From Procambarus clarkii (taxonomy: Eukaryota; Arthropoda; Malacostraca; Decapoda; Cambaridae): a stretch of 64,000 nt of DNA. Shown here one piece after another: positions 3,970 through 50,400 of the stretch. Position numbers and translations under genes: made by a program. Location of the stretch: positions 18,125,468 through 18,189,467 of the forward strand of contig NC_091156.1 in assembly GCF_040958095.1 (NCBI RefSeq), written 5' to 3'. The notes under the pieces were generated by a model. That model ran no database searches, was not told where the DNA came from, and saw only the letters and a list, made by a program, of their open reading frames with translations. Within the stretch, counting starts at the first letter, position 1. Every line of letters starts with the position of its first letter.

Positions 3970-4696
3970 CTCTACGATACTACGGCGGTATCATAGTGTG
4001 TATGTGACGATGCTACGGCGGTATCGTAGTGTATATGTGACGATACTACGGTGGTATCGTAGTGTATGTGACGATACTACGGCGGTATCGTAGTGTATGT
4101 GACGATACTACGGTGGTATCGTAGTATGCATGTGACGATACTAAGGTGGTATCGTAGTGTATATGTGACGATACTACGACGGTATCGTAGTGTATGTGAC
4201 GATACTACGGTAGTATCGTAGTATGTATGTGACGATACAACGGTGGTATCGTAGTGTTTGTGACGATACTACGGCGGTATCGTACTGTGTATGTGACGAT
4301 ACTACGGTGGTATCGTAGTGTTTGTGACGATACTACGGCGGTATCGTAGTGTATGTGACGATACTACGGTGGTATCGTAGTGTTTGTGACGATACTACGG
4401 CGGTATCGTAGTGTATGTGACGATACTACGGTGGTATCGTAGTGTGTTGGTGACGATACTACGGCGGTATCGTAGTGTATGTGACGATACTACGGTGGTA
4501 ACGTAGTGTGTTTGTAACGATACTACGGCGGTATCGTAGTGTTTGTGACGATACTACGGTGGTATCGTAGTGTTTGTGACGATACTACGGCGGTATCGTA
4601 GTGTATGTGACGATACTACGGTGGTATCGTAGTGTTTGTGACGATACTACGGTGGTATCGTAGTGTGTATGTGACGATACTACGGCGGTATCGTAG
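3970..4696. repeat. Dyad-symmetric minisatellite, ~31 bp unit (block 1)
   Basis: The unit contains ACGATAC-TACGGYG-GTATCGT, a 7 bp inverted repeat around a 7-nt loop, followed by AGTGTATGTG. Units alternate between CGGCGG and CGGTGG centres and the linker varies by a few bases. About 25 units are present. The array continues after a SINE insertion. Confidence 0.95.
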
Positions 4697-5033: not shown

Positions 5034-5482
5034 CATATTTCATCACCCGCAGGATGATGAAATATGCTGACGATACTACGACGGTATCGTAGTGTGTATG
5101 TGACGATACTACGGTGGTATCGTAGTGTATGTGACGATACTACGGTGGTATCGTAGTGTATGTGACGATACTACGGTGGTATCGTAGTGTATGTGACGAT
5201 ACTACGGTGGTATCGTAGTGTATGTGACGATACTACGGTGGTATCGTAGTGTATGTGACGATACTACGGTGGTATCGTAGTGTATGTGACGATACTACGG
5301 TGGTATCGTAGTGTATGTGACGATACTACGGTGGTATCGTAGTGTATGTGACGATACTACGGTGGTATCGTAGTGTGTATGTGACGATACTACGGTGGTA
5401 TCGTAGTGTGTATGTGACGATACTACGGTGGTAGTATGTATTTGGTATTTCATCACCCGCGGGATGATGAAATATGCTGAAT
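5034..5482. repeat. Dyad-symmetric minisatellite (block 2) with flanking inverted motifs
   Basis: About twelve 31-33 bp units, nearly all with the CGGTGG centre and so more homogeneous than block 1. A motif TTTCATCACCCGC followed by GGATGATGAAAT, itself an inverted repeat, lies at both edges of the block (about 5040 and 5450). This suggests the block expanded inside a duplicated palindromic element. Confidence 0.85.
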
Positions 5483-8060: not shown

Positions 8061-10137
8061 GTTCAAAGTGTCTGTGTGTGTGTATTCACCGAGTTGTGTT
8101 TGTGGGGGTTGAGCTCTGGCTCTTTAAGAACATAAGAATAAAGGTAACTGCAGAAGGCCAATTGGCCCATACGAAACAGCTCCAATATATATCCACCCAA
8201 TCTCATTCATATATATGTCTAACCTATGCTTGAAACAATCAAGGGATCCTTCTTCTATTACCTTATGCGGTAACTGCTTTCACTAATCAATAACCCTGTT
8301 ACCGAATCAGTATTTATCCAGGTCTTTCCTAAATCTAAACTTATCCAATTTATACCCATTGTTTCGTGTTGTCTTGTGTTGATACTTTTAATACCCTATT
8401 AATATCCCCTTTGTTATGACCATTCATCCACTTGTACACCTCTATCATGTCACCCTTAACTCTTCACCTTTCTAGAGAATTTAAGCTTTGTCAATTTTTC
8501 TTCATATGACAGGTTTCTAATTTGGGAGATTAACTTTGTCATCCTATGCCGGACGCGTTCTAGTGATTTTATATCCATTCTATAATACGGCGACCAAAAC
8601 TGAACTGCATAATCTAAATGGGGCCTAACCAGAGCAAGATTTAGCTGAAGAACAACACCAGGTGTCTTGTTACTAACGGTTCGATTAATAAATCCCAGTG
8701 TCCTATTTGCCTTACTACGAACATTTATGTATTGATTTTTTGTTTTAAATTCTTACTAATCATAACTCCCATCTTGTATCTTGAGTTAATCTCCCATCAG
8801 CTCGTATCTTGTAACTCTATCATCATTACCTAGCCTCAAAACCTTACATTTGTCAGCATTAAACTGCATCTGTCAGTCTTTTGACCATTTATAAACCTAA
8901 TTTAGATCGTCTTGAAGTGATAGCGAGTCTTTTTCCTTGTTTATTAATTTCCCCGATGCCTAATATTACCCTTTGGTCCCGCCTCCCAACCGTCAATCAA
9001 CAGGTGTACAGGTTCCTGAGCCTACTGGGCTCTATCATATCTACACTTGAAACTGTGTATGGAGTCAGCCTCCACCACATCACTGCCTAATGCATTCCAT
9101 CTGTTAACTACTCTGACACTAAAAAAAATCTTTCTAATGGCTCTGCGGCTCCTTTGGGTACAAAGTTTCCACCTGTGTCCCCTAGTGCATGTTCCACCCA
9201 TGCTAAATAGTTTGTCTTTGTCCACCCTGTCAATTCCCCTGAGAATTTTGTAGGTGGTTATCATGTCTCTCCTTACTCTTCTGTCTTTCAGGGACGTGAG
9301 GTTTAGCTCCCGTACCGTTTCCTCGTAGCTCATACCTCTCAGTTGTGGGACTAGCCTGGTGGCATACCCCTGAATCTTCTCTAACGTTGTCTTGTGTTTA
9401 ACTAGGTATGGACTCCAGGCTGGAGCTGCATACTCGAGGATTGGTCTCACATAAGTGGTATACAAGGTCCTGACCGATTCCTTACACAAGTTTCTAAAGG
9501 CAGTTTTTATGTTGGCCAATCTAGCATATGCCGCTGATGATATCATTTTGATGTGGGCCTTCTGGGGACAGGTTCGGTGTGATATCAACCCCCAGATCTT
9601 TCTCTCTATTTGACTCTTGCAGGATTTCACCTCCCAGATAGTAGCTTGTGTTCAGCCTCCTGCTCCCTTCGCCTAATTTCATTATTTTACACTTTCCTGA
9701 GTTATTCTTATAGCCATTTTCTAGACCATTCCTCGAGTTTGTCCAGGTCGTCCTGTAGTCTCTGTCTGTCTTCATCTGTCTTGATTGTTCTCAGAATTTT
9801 TGCATCATCAGCAAACATTAAGAGGGATGAGTCTATACCCTCTGGAAGATCATTTACGTATATTAGAAACAGGATGGGTCCAAGTACAGAGCCCTGTGAG
9901 ACTCCGCTGGTGACATCTCGTCACTTTGATGTCTCCCCCTCACAGTTACTCGCTGTTTCCTGTTGCTTAGATACTCCCTTATCCACTGGAGCACCTTACC
10001 TTTTACTCTTGTCTGTTTCTCCGACTTTTGTAACAGACTTTTATTTGGTTCTGTGTCAAAGGCTTTCTGACAGTCAAGAAAATGCAGTTTACCTACCCTT
10101 CTCTTTCTTGCCTAATTTTTGTCGCTGGTCATAGAAT
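8060..10137 (-). pseudogene. LINE-1-family RT C-terminal half, split by another LINE
   Basis: Minus-strand reading: KMKLGEGSRR-type segment, REKDLGVDITPNLSPEG, SAAYARLANIKTAFRNLCKE, VRPILEYAAPAWSPYLVK, LRGMSYEETVRELNLTSLKD, MITTYKILRGIDRVDKDKLF, VVNRWNALGSDVVEADSIHS, ending CRYDRAQ-stop. This is the post-catalytic part of a non-LTR RT. Frameshifts break the upstream portion (9500-10130). The 3' tail is cut in two: GAGCTCTGGCTCTT is near 8100 and the continuation TGGTCCCGCCTCCCAACCG near 8975, with about 865 bases of LINE-5 inserted between them. Confidence 0.8.
8108..8972 (-). pseudogene. LINE-5 fragment nested in LINE-1 tail
   Basis: The minus strand carries an eroded non-LTR RT C-terminus: WSKDCQMQFNADKCKVLRLG, RSKANRTLGFINRTVSNKTP, ALVRPHLDYAVQFWSPYYRM, RHRMTKLISQIRNLSYEEKL. 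Several stops are present. It ends in a 3' region containing GCCAATTGGCCTTCTGCAG (minus). A further 3'-end copy lies near 53.8 kb. The family differs clearly from LINE-1 and LINE-2. Confidence 0.75.
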
Positions 10138-29564: not shown

Positions 29565-30337
<773 letters not shown>

Positions 30338-43800: not shown

Positions 43801-46109
43801 TCAATTAATTTGTTGTCAAACAGATCACAAAGAGTAACAGTCAACAAAATAAAATTGAGTGCAACCACAGTTAAACTCTCTCTACCTCAGGGTACAGTCC
43901 TTGCACCACTGCTTTTCCTTATTCTCGTATCAGATATAGACAAAATTACAAGTCACAGCTTCGTATCATCCTTTGCAGATGAAACAAAATTCAGCATGAA
44001 AATTACCTCTGCTGCAGACATTGAAAAACTACATGCAGATATTAATAAAGTTTTTGACTGGCATCAGAAAATAACATGATTTCTGGGGGGAGCCCCGTCG
44101 GCTCCCCGGAGCTGATATGCTAATGTCAGACTTTGGCATCAGTCATGTGTATGGAGTTCTAGGGCCTACCGGGGACCACGAGCCAGAACCTGGCCCCCTC
44201 AGAGAGGCAAGGGGAGCAATGGCCTATAGAAACCCCCGTGTGGTTGGAAGCATTCTATGTCTGCCATCGACCGGGTCAAGCATCCAGAAAGGTAAGCATT
44301 CCAAAACAAACCCCTATTCTGGTGAAAATTGCTACCTAAGCCGAACTAGTGAATAGAACTCTTCAACAGAAAACACGGAAACTAGTATGACGTCATACGT
44401 CACCGCGCCGCTGTCTGCGCAGCTCCCCCCTCCCCGGGAGGGGGAAGGGGGAGCCCCAGACCTCCCACGCCGGCTATCCACCCATCAGTTCTTCGGCTGA
44501 TGCTATAGGCAATGGTTATGTGCTCCGGCTCCAGTGGTTGTTTCAGCACTGTACCTAGAGTGTGGTGTCTGTTTTCTAGGTGGTGCGTGAGCCGGGTGTG
44601 ATTCTTCAGTACTCGGGCTGCATGCGCCTAGGGTTCCCTTCCCTAGGTGCCCTGTAAGTACTGCCCTTGGGGCTTGGGGCCACCTTCCACAAGTTCCTTG
44701 GGTCCTGCCCCTGCTTGGCCGTTTACCGCTTGGTTTTCGGCCGCTCTTTGTGTGCTCGGGTGTTCTGTCTCCCTTGTTCGCCTTAGAGTAAGGGGCAGTG
44801 TTTGCACTGGTGGGGCGCGGGGTACTGTGCAGCTTGTCTTTACCAATCATAGCGGCCGGCTCTGTTCCGCTTGGGTACGCTGTCCTCTTGCGGGGTTTTC
44901 TTTTTCTTTTGTTTATATACCTGGTGGGGGGGTCTGCCTTCGTTCTTGCCCCTTGTGTCCCTTGTGTTCTGAGTATTTCTGGTGGTACCCCCTGCTAGGT
45001 CCCCGTGAGTGTACACGTCCCGGGGGTTCAGCTCTTAGAAAGTTGTTTGGTAGCTTGGGTGCCGGTTAGCAGTACCCTGCCTGGGATTACCTGAGCGCGA
45101 TCGAGTCCTCTTAAAGTAAACGCTCGGGACCCTGGGAAACCCCTGGGGGCGCGCGGGTCCGATGGATGTGACCCCAGAGCCCCCCCCTCGCTTCCAGCGA
45201 GTTTGAGGGTTGCTCTCACCTTTTGTCTCTGGGTGACTCTCTGTTTTGCCTCCGTCTGCTGCCTGTGGGGTCGGTGACACCTTCGACCCGGTGTCCTGCG
45301 AGTTTGGTTGCTCGTTGTGGCTCGGTTACCCAGTTGTGCTAACAAAGCGGGTGCGGGCAGCAGGGGCGTTGCACTTGAGCCTTGGTGGTGGCAACGTTCT
45401 CGTGGTTTCCTCCCCGGGAGCCCCGGGGCTGCCCCGTTGTATTTCGTTTTTCCCCTGGTTCACCCTTCCTGCCTGCATCCGGTTCCTTACCGTCTGTAGG
45501 TTCGGGCGGGGTGTTTGGTGGTGTTGAGACTCGGGCAGTCTCGGGGAATTCCCCTTCCGGGGTAGTGACGGGGGCATTTGGGCCTGTTCCTCCAGCCGTG
45601 TTGTATGAGTCTGCCAGTGGGCTCCCTTCCTTAGTGTTTTCACGGCTGCCCCGGTTTTCTGGTACGGCCGGGGCTTTGGGGGAACGGCTCGGCCCCGGGG
45701 CCTGTCGTGTAGGTTCCCGGGGCTGGGGAGGGGCTGACTTGGGGGGCCTTGGCCCCGTTAGACCCCGTGGGGGGTTTTATCCCCCTCTAGGCGGGGCTTG
45801 TGGTTACGCGGAGTGGGGTTTTTCCTCCCCACTCGCCGTACGTGCTGTTGGACGTCGGCCCCTCCCCGGGCTCGGTTCCTTGGCCTTTGAGTCGGTTGGT
45901 TCCGTCCTGTGGGTGGATGTTTCCTCCCCCGCTTTTTGGGACGGTGTTTTTGTCATGTTTCCCCGTTCGATGGGGTTCTGCGTGACTTTTGATCTCGGGT
46001 GCGCCTGCGCCTTCGTGTGCCTTCGGGACTAGTGTTGGCTTCTGTGTTCTCGAGGGTACGGGAGGTTTTTCGCTACTTCCCGCATTATTGGAACGTCTGT
46101 CGGCTCCTA

Positions 46110-46350
46110 GTACTTGTCGCCCTGTTGGGCTACTTGTCGCCCTGTTGGGCTACTTGTCGCCCTGTTGGGCTACTTGTCGCCCTGTTGGGCTACTTGTCGC
46201 CCTGTTGGGCTACTTGTCGCCCTGTTGGGCTACTTGTCGCCCGGTTGGGCTACTTGTCGCCCGGTTGGGCTACTTGTCGCCCGGTTGGGCTACTTGTCGC
46301 CCGGTTGGGCTACTTGTCGGCCGTTTGGGCTACTTGTCGCCCGTTTGGGT
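46110..46350. repeat. Minisatellite, 20 bp unit, ~12 copies
   Basis: Unit TACTTGTCGCCCTGTTGGGC. The first six copies have CCTGTT, the next four CCGGTT, and the last two CCGTTT, so variants are sorted along the array. Confidence 0.95.
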
Positions 46351-47029
46351 TCCCTTTTTTTTTGGGCTCTTTGCTTCTTTGGCCGGTTTTCTTGTTCCTG
46401 CTTCCTCTTTTGGCTCTTTTTCTCGTGCAATAGTCCTGGCTGGCGCCTTCCCGCAGGGAGGGTGTGCGGTTCGGCCGGCGTGTTATGCGCATGCGCCGTG
46501 GAGTTTGTTTTGGTCTGGGCGATGGTTCAGTGCTGGGGTTTTGCGCCCTTTTTTGCTACAGTGCTTCGCCTCTCGTTCTTCTCCCTGGCTGCGGTATGTG
46601 CCCCTTTGCGCCAGGGGTGTCCTGGTTCCCAGTTGTGGGGAGGGCACCGCGGTTTTCTGTGTCATGGGTGTGGACCGCCTCCTTCGCCTCTCCCTGTTCT
46701 CCTGCGGGTCCGGCTCTGGCGTCTTCACCTGGCGGTGCTCCCAAGTTCTTCTGGGCACGGTTGAGTCGTGTCAAGTTCGAGCCACCATTCGCCAGGTGAG
46801 TTTCTGCGGTCTGGCGTCTTTTGGCCGGGCGCTGGATGCGGCGGTGTTCATATACCTGTCTTTATTTAGGTATAATTTTGTACGACTGAGACCGTTCGCA
46901 CACCAGTGACTGTCCCTTTATCACCCCTTCCTGTCCCCCTCCTGTGCATGTCCAACCCATGCTACAGTCGTTCAGGGGACCCTCCTTTTTTAATGTTGTG
47001 AGGTGTGGGGGTTGTAGGGTTGGTTCTGT

Positions 47030-47419
47030 ACTCACCTGGTGAGGCTCCTGGCTGTGCTTGCAGGATTTGAGCTCTGGCTCTTGGGTCCCGCCTATCTGGT
47101 AGAACTTGCGGGATAGTACCAGTGGAGTGCAGTGGTGCTATTGGCACTTTTGGGGAACACTGTATTACCATCAGTGGTCTGTGCTTGTTACACGACCTAC
47201 TTGCGAGCATAAGCCTTCTTGCTGGTTCGTCCGTGGACTTCCAGGGCGCACTGGCCTGTTTTCGTATGGCAGTTCCGGCCCGTCCTGGTTGTGGGGGTAT
47301 GTGGGCCAGTGGACTGCTCCTAGCAGCTGCCTGGTGGGCCATCCTCTGGCCGGTCTGGCCTGACCTTGGGCCGGGCTTGGGGTGTAAAAGAGCTCCCAGT
47401 ACCTCATCCAGCAGGTATC
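47030..47419 (+). pseudogene. Captured LINE 3' ends with adenine-targeted substitutions
   Basis: 47107-47419 aligns along its length with the LINE-2 3' end at 7244-7560 (minus). In the same frame it still reads SGAIGTFGEHCITISG, LLASISLLAGSSVDF, ARPGCGG. By hand, A of the reference is changed at 49 of 85 aligned sites (22 to T, 17 to G, 10 to C), other bases at 31 of 216. 47030-47106 resembles a LINE-1 tail in the opposite orientation (TTGAGCTCTGGCTCTT). Confidence 0.8.
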
Positions 47420-49250
47420 GAGCGGGGTTTCTCCGCCGTCGGTCGCCTGGTGCAGGTTTCTGGGCCTGCAGGGTTTTGTCGTGTCTCCGTTGGCCCTGTC
47501 TGGGGTCTGCCTGCTCCGTTCTCTGCCTTTGCAGAGGGGAGTTGCTATTTACATGTTGCATGTTGCAGTGGTGCCTGTTGCTGCTGCTGCTGCACGTGAG
47601 CATTGGTACCGTGTTTCACGGTGGCGTGTCCTTGTTCCTGTGTCCGGTTGTGGAGTGGCGCTTTGCTGCCGTTTTGTGCCTGGGGATTGCGTGGGGTTTT
47701 TGTCCCTGCCTGATTGTCCACCCCTGGTTGTTCTCCTGGTTTTTTTTTTTTTTTTTTTTTTTTTTGTGCTTCTGCTCTTTCTTCCTGCCTCTTCTGCAGC
47801 AGGAATGTTCTGCGTGTGTTCTTAGGCGTTGGTCAGCCTGTGTCCTGTGATGTGCTTCTTTGTCTCGGTCTGTTGCAGTTGTTCGGGCCCCTTGGTTCGG
47901 GTCCTGTTCTGGCGGCGACCCTTCCGCCTTCTTTGGTTTTCCTAGCTTGCCCTGCCGGTTTTTGTTGTTGTTTTATTTTTTTTGGGGGGGTTCTTGCGAT
48001 GTCTCGCGTCGGACCCGTCGTTTCTGAACTCCTGGCGGGCTTGCATGCTTCGGAGTTTTTCTGTTCGGCAGACGTTCCATCTCCTTGTGCTGCCTGGGTT
48101 TCGGTGGTCGCGCCCGAGATCTTCTCGCGGCTCCGCCTTTTTCCTGGGCTCGGGGGGGGCCTTGTCGGGGCTGCTTATGTTCTGCCTCGTGGTCTCGCCT
48201 CCGGTTGGTGGTCGGGTGGCTTCGTGGTAGGTGTCCCACCTGCGTGCTTCTTGGCGGCAGTATGGGGTATTTTGGCGGTCCTTCCTTTTCCTGTCCCTTC
48301 TTCGGTGGGTCCTTCTTGTTGGCTTGGTTTACTCTCGGCTTGGTTTTCTAGTGGGGGTTGGGGGCCGTCGTCTTGCCACATACTGTCGCCTCTTTTCGTG
48401 CGGCGCAGGCGGAGCCGCTTCAGCTTGCTTTCGGTCTTGGTGTTGCTTCTGCACCGTTAGTCAGCTGTCTTGTGCGTCATTTCACCTCCGGCCTGTTCGT
48501 GCGCCGCTTGCACCATCCTGGTCTCTGGTCAGCGTGCTCTGTCTTCTCCTCGGTTGGTAGTGCCCCTTCGGTTCCGGTGTGTTTTTTCGTCGGCTCTTTC
48601 CTTTGGGCCTTTGCCTCTGGGGGTCGGTTCGCTGTGTTTTCTTGCTCCTTCGGTTTTAGCGTTTTGGTTGTTTGATGGCAGCAGTCTCCATCTTTTCTGG
48701 CGCGGGGTGGGGCTGCTGCATTCTGGAGGGGTCCAGGGTTTGTTGGTGCTTTGTTGGTCGGGCCGGGGGTGTGTCGTTTTTGTGTTCAGTGGCGGCCCTC
48801 TGCTGTTGTTTGCGTGCCACGGCGTTTGGGTCCGGAGCGCGTTTTGCGTTGATCCGGTTCTGTTCTTCCCGGTTCGCGGGTGATGGTGTCCCGGGTGGTC
48901 AGCCGTGTTCTTGTGGCTAAGCTGCCTGTGTTCTTCCCTCATGCCTGTGGCGTTCGTGGCTTCGCTGCTCTCGCTGCCGTCTGGGCGACGTGGCCTTGCA
49001 GTCTTTCGGGCATGGATTTTTGGTGTTCGTGCAGGGGCGTTGCTGCTCGTGGTTCTCGTGTTGTTCCCGGGATTTTCGGGGCTGTGGCGCCTTGGGTTGG
49101 CGTTTGCTGCCGGTTGTCTCGCCTCCTTGGGGGGTGCGTGGTGTCCGCCTCCCGGTTTTGTCCCTTTGACCTTCCTCTGTGGGTAGTTAGCTCCGGGGAG
49201 CCGACGGGGCTCCCCCCAGAAAACCAGCGTTGAATGTAATGAAACGCCAT

Positions 49251-49744
49251 TTTCTGGGTGAGACCCGGAGGCTCCCCGGCAACCCTCCCTCCCTCCGGTC
49301 GGCGTTTTTCGCGTGTTTTGACATCCAGCCTCAGAACTGATGGGTGGATAGCCGGCGTGGGAGGTCTGGGGCTCCCCCTTCCCCCTCCCGGGGAGGGGGG
49401 AGCTGCGCAGACAGCGGCGCGGTGACGTATGACGTCATACTAGTTTCCGTGTTTTCTGTTGAAGAGTTCTATTCACTAGTTCGGCTTAGGTAGCAATTTT
49501 CACCAGAATAGGGGTTTGTTTTGGAATGCTTACCTTTCTGGATGCTTGACCCGGTCGATGGCAGACATAGAATGCTTCCAACCACACGGGGGTTTCTATA
49601 GGCCATTGCTCCCCTTGCCTCTCTGAGGGGGCCAGGTTCTGGCTCGTGGTCCCCGGTAGGCCCTAGAACTCCATACACATGACTGATGCCAAAGTCTGAC
49701 ATTAGCATATCAGCTCCGGGGAGCCTCCGGGTCTCACCCAGAAA
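49251..49744. mobile_element. Small TIR element (B), MITE of the same family
   Basis: 494 bp with TTTCTGGGTGAGACCCGGAG-GCTCCCCGG ends. Outside these, AAACCAGCGTTGAATGTAAT and its inverse extend the symmetry on both sides. Its interior equals the left end of element A in inverted orientation, so B is probably a deletion derivative of an A-type element. Confidence 0.8.
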
Positions 49745-49774
49745 ATGGCGTTTCATTACATTCAACGCTGGTTT

Positions 49775-50400
49775 TTTAACATTGATAAATTCAAGGTACT
49801 CAGGTATGGTAAAAATGAGGACCTTAAACAAAATACAGGGTACAAAACACAATCAAATGTGCCCATAGTAGGAAAACAGTATGTCAAGGATTTGGGAATA
49901 ATGATGTCTGACGACTTAGCGTTTAGGGAGCATAACCAAGCAAATATTGTGCAAACCAGAAAAATGATAGGATGGATTACGAGAACCTTCAAATCCAGGG
50001 ATCCCATCACAATGGTTGTAAGTACAGTTCTATTAAAATCAGTTGTACTGTCCCATCTTAGGTATTGCTCGATACTTACTTCCCCCTTCAGAGCAGGAGA
50101 GGTTACTGAAATAGAGGGAATACAGAGAACACATACAGCATACATAGACACGGTAAAACACCTAAATTATTGGGATCATCTCAAAGCTCTCCAAATGTAC
50201 TCCCTAGAAAGGAGATGAGTGAGATATCAAATAATTATACAAGAAAAATACTGGAGGGCCAGGTCCCAAATCTGCACAGTAAAATAACAACATACTGGAG
50301 TGAATGATATGGAAGAAAATGCAGAATAGAACCAGTGAAGAGCAGGGGTCCCATAGGCACAATCAGAGAACATTGTTTGAACATCAGAGGTCCACGGTTG
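49775..50400 (+). pseudogene. LINE-2 RT, second part after the TIR elements
   Basis: Open for about 145 codons: FNIDKFKVLRYGKNEDLKQN, VKDLGIMMSDDLAFREHNQA, RKMIGWITRTFKSRDPITMV, LSHLRYCSILTSPFRAGEVT, LNYWDHLKALQMYSLERR. It continues the frame left at 44079 (DWHQKIT), showing that elements A and B inserted into one LINE. Confidence 0.85.

Follow-up and report, generated by a model that had tools for sequence, protein, structure and literature searches.

The window is a stretch of 64,000 nucleotides from Procambarus clarkii (contig NC_091156.1). It contains a mobile unit that reaches from 44080 to about 49777 on the + strand. This extent is identical in 22 of the 22 copies compared first, while their flanks are different, and 8 further copies carry both ends as well. 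The window copy is a member of a high-copy family in one 4.0 Gb genome, and the other 29 of the 30 full-length copies are 99.2-99.8% identical to it. The preliminary description had delimited the interior of a TIR element at 44493..49190. This segment corresponds to the A-poor interior, but the mobile unit is larger and includes arms of 420 bases and the region 49220-49775. Its parts are as follows:

44080..49777, + strand, entire mobile unit, running 5' to 3' from left to right; sits in a LINE reverse-transcriptase frame, with LINE frames on either side
44080..44113, + strand, 5' terminal inverted repeat with a hairpin (8-bp stem); 34/34 complementary to 49189-49222
44080..44499, + strand, left arm, not A-poor; 98% complementary to 49326-49746, about 393 consecutive bases being identical
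44500..49188, + strand, A-poor interior (8.0% A)
46111..46349, + strand, 20-bp tandem array, 3 to 13 units across 30 copies
46864..47004, + strand, captured repeat resembling 8130-8271; asymmetric score, core 46948-47004 also with symmetric score
47027..47096, - strand, captured LINE-B 3' part, first piece; matches 30184-30241; family coding sense from translation
47100..47429, + strand, captured LINE-A (LINE-2-like) ORF end in sense orientation between two LINE-B pieces; from alignment and translation
47430..47533, - strand, captured LINE-B, continued; from alignment and translation
49189..49222, + strand, internal terminal-repeat copy, putative 3' repeat of the first unit; complement of 44080-44113
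49223..49249, - strand, flipped copy (reverse complement) of the 3' terminal hairpin; 49220-49279 and 49716-49775 are 100% complementary
49250..49745, + strand, short second unit; holds the outer 3' inverted repeat and, at 49326-49746, the right arm; from self-comparison and copy comparison
49746..49771, + strand, 3' terminal hairpin common to 22 copies; fold -4.4 kcal/mol
49772..49777, + strand, T run at the 3' junction, T-rich target; across 30 copies the T run measures 3-11 on the right and 3-9 on the left

The 5' inverted repeat folds at -9.9 kcal/mol (z -2.2; 5 of 200 shuffles were equal or better), and its internal copy folds with the adjoining 49223-49249 at -19.3 kcal/mol, which none of 200 shuffles matched. 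Taken alone, the 3' terminal hairpin is weak, since 15 of 200 shuffles fold equally well or better. The arms co-vary in most copies: a 9-bp insertion is found in both arms of 25 copies, in neither arm of 2 and in one arm of 3 (n = 30). Exact head-to-tail junctions occur twice in the genome. Inspected by eye, the ORF list of the interior holds incidental overlapping frames only. The sole protein-database match of one interior ORF was another copy of the same interior, on a 2175-base contig from another source, and the search with a second interior ORF gave no match; the LINE flank matched five unnamed proteins. Viral contigs scanned for two motifs yielded 0 matches, and strings of the printed sequence searched in paper texts were not found there.

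The one-strand depletion of A described earlier holds and is larger than claimed. Positions 44500-49189 contain 377 A in 4690 bases (8.0%), next to 26.5% C, 31.9% G and 33.6% T, and the poorest 1000-base stretch has 4.6% A. Outside the interior, the minimum fraction of A or T per 1000 bases is 13.1%, in tandem repeats at 17.3 kb; at the 200-base scale, the interior is equalled or undercut by a tandem repeat at 18.06 kb. The 30 loci with the same termini are equally A-poor (8.0-8.3% in the interiors of the full copies) and their singletons hit A more often per site than the other bases, which answers the preliminary description's question about such copies. Coding constraint was rejected as the cause of the low A content, as the ORFs overlap and the three codon phases are alike (9.0, 7.4 and 7.7% A). 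Along the element, A declines rightward (Spearman -0.51, 100-base bins). A mutation gradient was considered as well, but the number of A singletons per A site in successive parts (7/111, 5/57, 19/115, 7/45 and 4/42) follows no steady trend, which weakens this idea. Our guess is that the rightward fall is tied to the age of capture.

Captured repeats display the substitutions directly. If compared to the majority of eight window copies, the LINE-A segment (47100-47429) has 58 of 99 A changed (12 to C, 20 to G, 26 to T) and 35 of 231 other bases (C 19/85, including 13 C>T; G 8/90; T 8/56), with Fisher values of 6e-15 for A against the others and 4e-8 for A against T. The A-to-any excess in this LINE-2 tail, previously given as 49/85 against 31/216, is thus borne out by a proper table. 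So is the statement that other window copies lack it: leave-one-out tables of the eight LINE-A copies do not single out A. Within 47430-47533, the LINE-B stretch of opposite coding orientation, 25 of 27 A and 6 of 77 other bases are changed, with C, G and T as products. However, this piece was detected only with an A-change-tolerant score (44.8, where reversed-sequence controls reach 30.5 at most; 55.2 with looser gap costs, a value without a control of its own), so the 25/27 leans towards A changes. Against a consensus requiring at least 4 copies, the figures are 20/22 for A and 10/80 for the others. The first LINE-B piece (47027-47096) has just 4 A, 1 of them changed, and 6 of 54 other bases changed, while 46864-47004 displays a weaker bias (A 28/48, C 9/32, G 3/18, T 13/39; others 25/89). 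In the captured segments C>T amounts to 17/117 and G>A to 3/109. Among the 13 matches listed, those scoring little better than the control, for example 48463-48526, do not enter the counts. Since LINE-A lies in sense and LINE-B in antisense, yet both lose A from the + strand, it is the element that determines which strand is affected, as the preliminary description had suspected for the locus rather than the captured sequence.

The same bias, with the same strand and all three products, is present in the newest copies. Among the 30 full-length copies, interior singletons affect 49 of 367 A sites (13 to C, 25 to G, 11 to T), 29 of 1453 T, 69 of 1166 C and 55 of 1408 G, the 20-bp array, poly-T and gap-rich columns being excluded. 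A strict filter removed 19 more singletons and left 43/358 for A and 23/1346 for T (p 3e-15). Relative to the strand partner, A>G is raised 8.3-fold, A>C 7.4-fold, A>T 4.4-fold and C>T 1.9-fold (p 0.004), with C>A at 0.86 and C>G at 1.06, and copies on both contig strands feed the bias. Isolated 1-bp deletions follow suit (A 4/358, C 1/1098, G 0/1328, T 0/1346). The rate per copy is about 0.45% of A sites (49 events in 30 copies x 367 sites). In the right part of the unit the singletons are borderline (A 7/113, T 2/144, p 0.05), and the left arm is nearly unchanged but uninformative, because it served as search query. Since the newest mutations carry the A bias, it does not stem from one old burst. 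The sequence context of changed A is only slightly uneven. Pol-eta-type hypermutation, formerly invoked in part, was rejected, as A preceded by A or T is not changed preferentially (WA 13/137, SA 36/230), and ADAR-type editing was rejected because A>C and A>T accompany A>G.

Diverged relatives share the bias in the interior: of the 125 columns in which A occurs, 1 retains it throughout the four, whereas T is retained in 125/315, G in 100/257 and C in 70/223. Two control LINE families are without bias (A 13/435, T 28/548), and a third control repeat, with 3 copies, had no usable site. Arm copies of old age do not simply follow the A rule. Six matches read as right arm give A 85/387 and T 56/532; if they are read as left arm, T consequently exceeds A. 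The L027 match, a left arm (T 10/81, A 2/101), is contrary to the rule unless the arms copy one another. If the copies are divided into thirds by their C+G changes (11, 42, 81), A changes number 15, 20 and 21 and T changes 7, 7 and 17. T changes track C+G (rho 0.56) and A changes hardly do (rho 0.23, p 0.23), but the age test, with p 0.06 and 0.09 in two forms and 0.42 in a third, is not decisive, and constant and age-proportional models of A change fit equally well. The equilibrium A content of the present spectrum, 7.7% (4.8-11.7%), resembles the observed 8.0%, while the control LINE spectrum gives 35%. However, the same equilibrium predicts 55% T and 14.5% C, where 34% and 26.5% are observed; thus it agrees for A only. 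With A matched, model runs (expm) overestimate how much C and G have changed in the captured LINE-A.

To which class does the element belong? The plain TIR element proposed at first had to be given up: in 22 copies the right end lies about 30 bases past the inverted repeat, and such asymmetric ends without visible duplication led us to reject a TIR cut-and-paste transposon. Passages of PMC3627910, PMC4067079 and PMC5148889 describe for Helitron2/Helentron (HINE) elements a 5' inverted repeat with a hairpin near the 5' end, a 3' repeat copy about 20-60 bp inside the 3' end with a hairpin downstream, and a T-rich target without target-site duplication. A 5' inverted repeat with hairpin of this type is present at 44080-44113. 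The outer 3' repeat extends to 49745, which leaves about 30 bases to the 3' end; it lies upstream of the weak hairpin 49746-49771 and shares with the outer 5' end the short perfect match TTTCTGGG; for a related copy the match is 77% over 31 bases. Nine paralogous empty-site comparisons for 7 insertions, some too diverged to judge, revealed no target duplication beyond T. In one copy, L034, the string GGGTTGGTAA occurs in both flanks, away from the ends. A search of the genome with the PF14214 profile located two Helitron Rep loci; the one examined, over 9.9 kb, is broken by stops, has a Pif1-type helicase domain in one piece and bears no similarity to the element within these 9.9 kb, and no autonomous partner was found there. 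Judged by their sequence, the ends, the T-rich targets and the lack of a visible duplication fit a non-autonomous Helitron2/Helentron-type element, whose transposon strand would be the A-poor one.

We favor, with a probability of roughly 45%, a young, high-copy, non-autonomous Helitron2/Helentron-type element in which a mutation process acting during transposition converts A of the transposon strand to C, G or T. This strand (5' to 3', + here) would lose A, with C>T mildly raised on it, as A may be misread or lost while the strand is copied or single-stranded in transposition, at a low rate per round. Ends and arms needed for transposition would keep their A through selection or arm-to-arm copying, while captured filler in the interior would drift to an A-poor equilibrium. 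If A on one strand is repeatedly mutated to the other three bases, the interior would thereby become almost A-free. The flipped 3' hairpin at the internal unit end may permit replication read-through to the end of the second unit. More tentatively, one might speculate that rolling-circle transposition in this animal includes a mutagenic step that is specific to adenines of the transferred strand and rewrites about half a percent of the remaining A per round.

Mutagenesis of resident copies, with germ-line transcription or R-loops exposing one strand and A being mutated year by year, appears unlikely to us. The share of A is similar in variants common to several copies and in private ones (variants common to 2-10 copies: A 11/370, T 11/1468; the A share is not higher), and the age-proportional model fits as well as the constant one. 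However, A changes are hardly more numerous in older copies, unlike T and C/G changes, a difference that is not significant, and with 30 copies scattered over many sites, the element itself would have to cause the exposure. Slightly less credible still is a host defence, in which an adenine deaminase or glycosylase attacks a single-stranded intermediate, gap repair yields A>G together with A>C and A>T, and C>T is contributed by a cytidine deaminase. A>G makes up roughly half of all changes at A (25/49), and both the same-strand C>T excess of singletons and captured segments and the deletions at A would suit such enzymes, but the context is only slightly uneven and the rate per round is low for a defence.

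An A-to-any spectrum is associated with bacterial retroelements, and in bacterial DGRs each event alters a large fraction of the adenines in the template. The DGR-like burst of reverse transcription put forward earlier, with an A-misreading reverse transcriptase copying the element via RNA, would account for changes of A to all three bases with the rest largely spared. Nevertheless we regard it as improbable: the low rate per round argues against a DGR-like retroelement, no reverse transcriptase was seen by eye in the ORF list of the element, its ends and targets resemble a rolling-circle element, and the bias is continuing. Very improbable is a replicon akin to single-stranded DNA viruses or rolling-hairpin replication that moves the unit, its long arms copying each other. 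The co-varying arms and the hairpins at ends and junction speak for it, but the end layout agrees with Helitron2/Helentron anatomy as described in the passages cited. The slightest probability of all is left for one ancient founder hypermutation with subsequent amplification, for selection or gene conversion towards low A, or for an assembly artefact. Near-identical copies with a common A-poor interior might result from an ancient burst, yet single-copy changes and diverged relatives carry the same bias. The bias of gene conversion is not strand-specific, and against an artefact stand the biased copies on both contig strands and the 2175-base contig from another source, which encodes the same interior.

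Taken together, the A bias points to an unusual mutation process linked to the element. No burst is needed for an A-to-any spectrum to accumulate in a DNA element of a eukaryote. To our knowledge, an adenine-specific mutagenic signature is known from no eukaryotic mobile element, and in the portion of the open-licence literature covered we recognised no report of A-biased mutation of Helitrons. The copying mode of Helitron-type elements in animals is largely inferred, and a one-strand bias across a very large family would record the strand that undergoes exposure or resynthesis, as well as the kind of polymerase or lesion involved. If the more tentative reading with an adenine-specific step is true, adenine loss would be a molecular clock of transposition rounds and captured DNA would be driven A-poor. 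Age, strand and rate of the A-biased family are all testable with existing assemblies.

ADAR editing, AID/APOBEC deamination, Pol-eta hypermutation and fungal RIP likewise mutate nucleic acids or mobile elements with a bias for a strand or target. Unlike those of ADAR and AID/APOBEC, the changes in this element are neither A>G only nor C>T alone. It shares with bacterial DGRs the one-strand change of A to all three other bases, others being largely spared, but differs in its low per-copy rate, the whole interior being hit, no reverse transcriptase being seen, and the anatomy of a DNA element. Co-varying 420-base arms, the combination of one long unit with a short one and the A-to-any bias distinguish it from Helitron2/Helentron elements as portrayed in the passages cited, and no Rep-helicase partner was found for it (2 Rep loci, one examined). 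In accordance with the same passages, it resembles Helitron2/Helentron/HINE (DINE-1-like) elements in its 5' TIR hairpin and its subterminal 3' repeat followed by a hairpin, in T-rich targets with a variable number of T and no target duplication, in head-to-tail copies and in the capture of foreign DNA.

The interior of the element (44500-49189) holds 377 A against 1575 T in 4690 bases; its poverty in A is real and extreme. The parts of the window that matter here are, in + strand coordinates:

44080-44499 and 49326-49746: left and right arm of the element, inverted, 420 bases
46111-46349: tandem array within the element, 20-bp unit, repeated 3 to 13 times depending on the copy (30 copies)
47100-47429: captured LINE-2-like segment, sense on the + strand
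47430-47533: second piece of another captured LINE tail, antisense on the + strand
3974-4696 and 5063-5433: tandem arrays elsewhere in the window, 31-base unit holding the inverted repeat ACGATACTAC...GGTATCGTAG

The LINE-2-like segment sits between two pieces of the other LINE tail. Measured against the majority of eight window copies of its family, it has changed A at 58/99 sites (to C 12, G 20 and T 26), compared with 19/85 for C, 8/90 for G and 8/56 for T, which bears out the A excess claimed for this segment in the preliminary description. The accompanying statement that further LINE-2-like copies lack such an excess held as well: A is not singled out in the eight other window copies, and a control including a second LINE family gave changes at 13/435 A and 28/548 T. 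In the second piece of the other LINE tail, A changed at 25/27 sites and the other bases at 6/77. Based on translation, the two tails lie in opposite coding orientation while both are depleted of A on the + strand. Thus it is the element and not the captured DNA that sets which strand is affected, as had been hinted.

The host genome measures 4.03 Gb and, to judge by the repeats, is probably that of a decapod crustacean. Searching it with the left arm gave 1103 first-look candidates; scoring 40 of these produced 41 matches, including the window's own copy, and all but one had 98-100% identity. One and the same unit is found in 22 copies with differing flanks, starting with TTTCTGGGGGG (44080) and ending with CAACGCTGG and a T run that closes at 49777, and both ends are also present in eight further copies. 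The units measure 5.42 to 5.74 kb, and 29 copies are 99.2-99.8% identical to the window copy. Among these 30, a 9-bp insertion occurs in both arms of 25, in neither arm of 2 and in one arm of 3. The arms vary jointly, as if one had been copied from the other.

An A-biased process is present in the newest mutations. Changes confined to a single copy (singletons) hit 42/370 interior A sites versus 19/1468 T sites among 22 copies and 49/367 versus 29/1453 among 30 copies; strict filtering leaves 43/358 versus 23/1346 (p 3e-15). Each A change is 4 to 8 times as frequent as its strand partner and C>T 1.9 times as frequent as G>A, and the two remaining strand-partner pairs are balanced. The 14 forward-oriented copies contribute 21 A and 13 T singletons, the 16 reverse-oriented ones 28 and 16. 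To the right of the interior (49189-49775) the bias is borderline (A 7/113 vs T 2/144, p 0.05). The singleton spectrum predicts an equilibrium of 7.7% A (4.8-11.7%), near the observed 8.0%, while the control spectrum predicts 35%. However, the same equilibrium gives 55% T and 14.5% C where 34% and 26.5% are observed, so that the agreement holds for A only.

Judged from aligned relatives, the bias is old as well. Relatives adjoining some copies have an interior that is A-poor on the same strand, and in 7/8 comparisons (71-84% identity) A is the element's least conserved base, clearly so in L007 (A 6/26 vs T 138/178) and L028, by a narrow margin in L022, L030 and L010. The eighth, L027, matches the left arm, and there A is the most conserved base. 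A four-way alignment of 574 columns kept A in all four sequences in 1/125 A-holding columns, versus 125/315 for T, 100/257 for G and 70/223 for C. With one relative as query there were 6850 first-look candidates, and the 40 that were scored lie at 77-88%, the query's own locus aside. Old copies of the arms make the picture less simple: six matches show more A than T change if read as right arms and the reverse if read as left arms, which copying between arms could explain.

Several other explanations were considered. A single founder burst is contradicted by the A-biased singletons and by the loss of A in relatives, A-to-G-only editing by the three products found among A singletons, and a WA-motif signature by the singleton contexts. 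An assembly artefact is unlikely, since the same interior occurs in both copy orientations and in a contig of another source. The A-to-any changes on one strand had been likened to reverse transcription in diversity-generating retroelements; such an enzyme is unlikely to lie behind them, because each copy has changed at only about half a percent of its A sites.

Changes that arise at transposition should not become more numerous as a copy ages. Sorted into thirds by C and G changes (11, 42, 81), the copies carry 15, 20 and 21 A changes and 7, 7 and 17 T changes, which points that way. However, age tests gave p values of 0.06, 0.09 and 0.42, constant and age-proportional models fared evenly, and the A share among shared variants is no higher. 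We give an origin at transposition slightly less than an even chance.

A database protein of 246 aa (P0001) is encoded by a 2175-base contig (source 'lgn') with the same A-poor interior; low-stop, A-poor DNA thus reaches protein databases as spurious genes.

Among open-licence titles and abstract openings, we recognised no report that describes such a bias, whether for Helitrons or for any other element of eukaryotes, and the A-to-any mutation process appears to be new. The Helitron Rep profile PF14214 matches only two loci in the genome. The one that was read (L061, 5887-9818) is a broken Rep-helicase locus with stops that is not A-poor; a Pif1-type helicase domain lies in one of three pieces scanned, and no similarity to the element occurs within 9.9 kb. 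Reading this locus revealed no autonomous partner.

Folding gives the element's ends a clear 5' and a weak 3' hairpin. Its targets are T runs, no duplication is visible, and two exact head-to-tail junctions exist in the genome. The internal end at 49189-49249 consists of the same parts as the unit end with the 3' hairpin flipped (reverse complement), an arrangement suggestive of replication passing from a long unit on into a short one; none of 200 shuffles of this junction of two units (49189-49262) folds as well as the native sequence. End hairpins, T-run targets, lack of visible duplication and head-to-tail junctions match the published layout of Helitron2, Helentron and HINE elements (PMC3627910, PMC4067079, PMC5148889). 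The element is a variant of this known kind.
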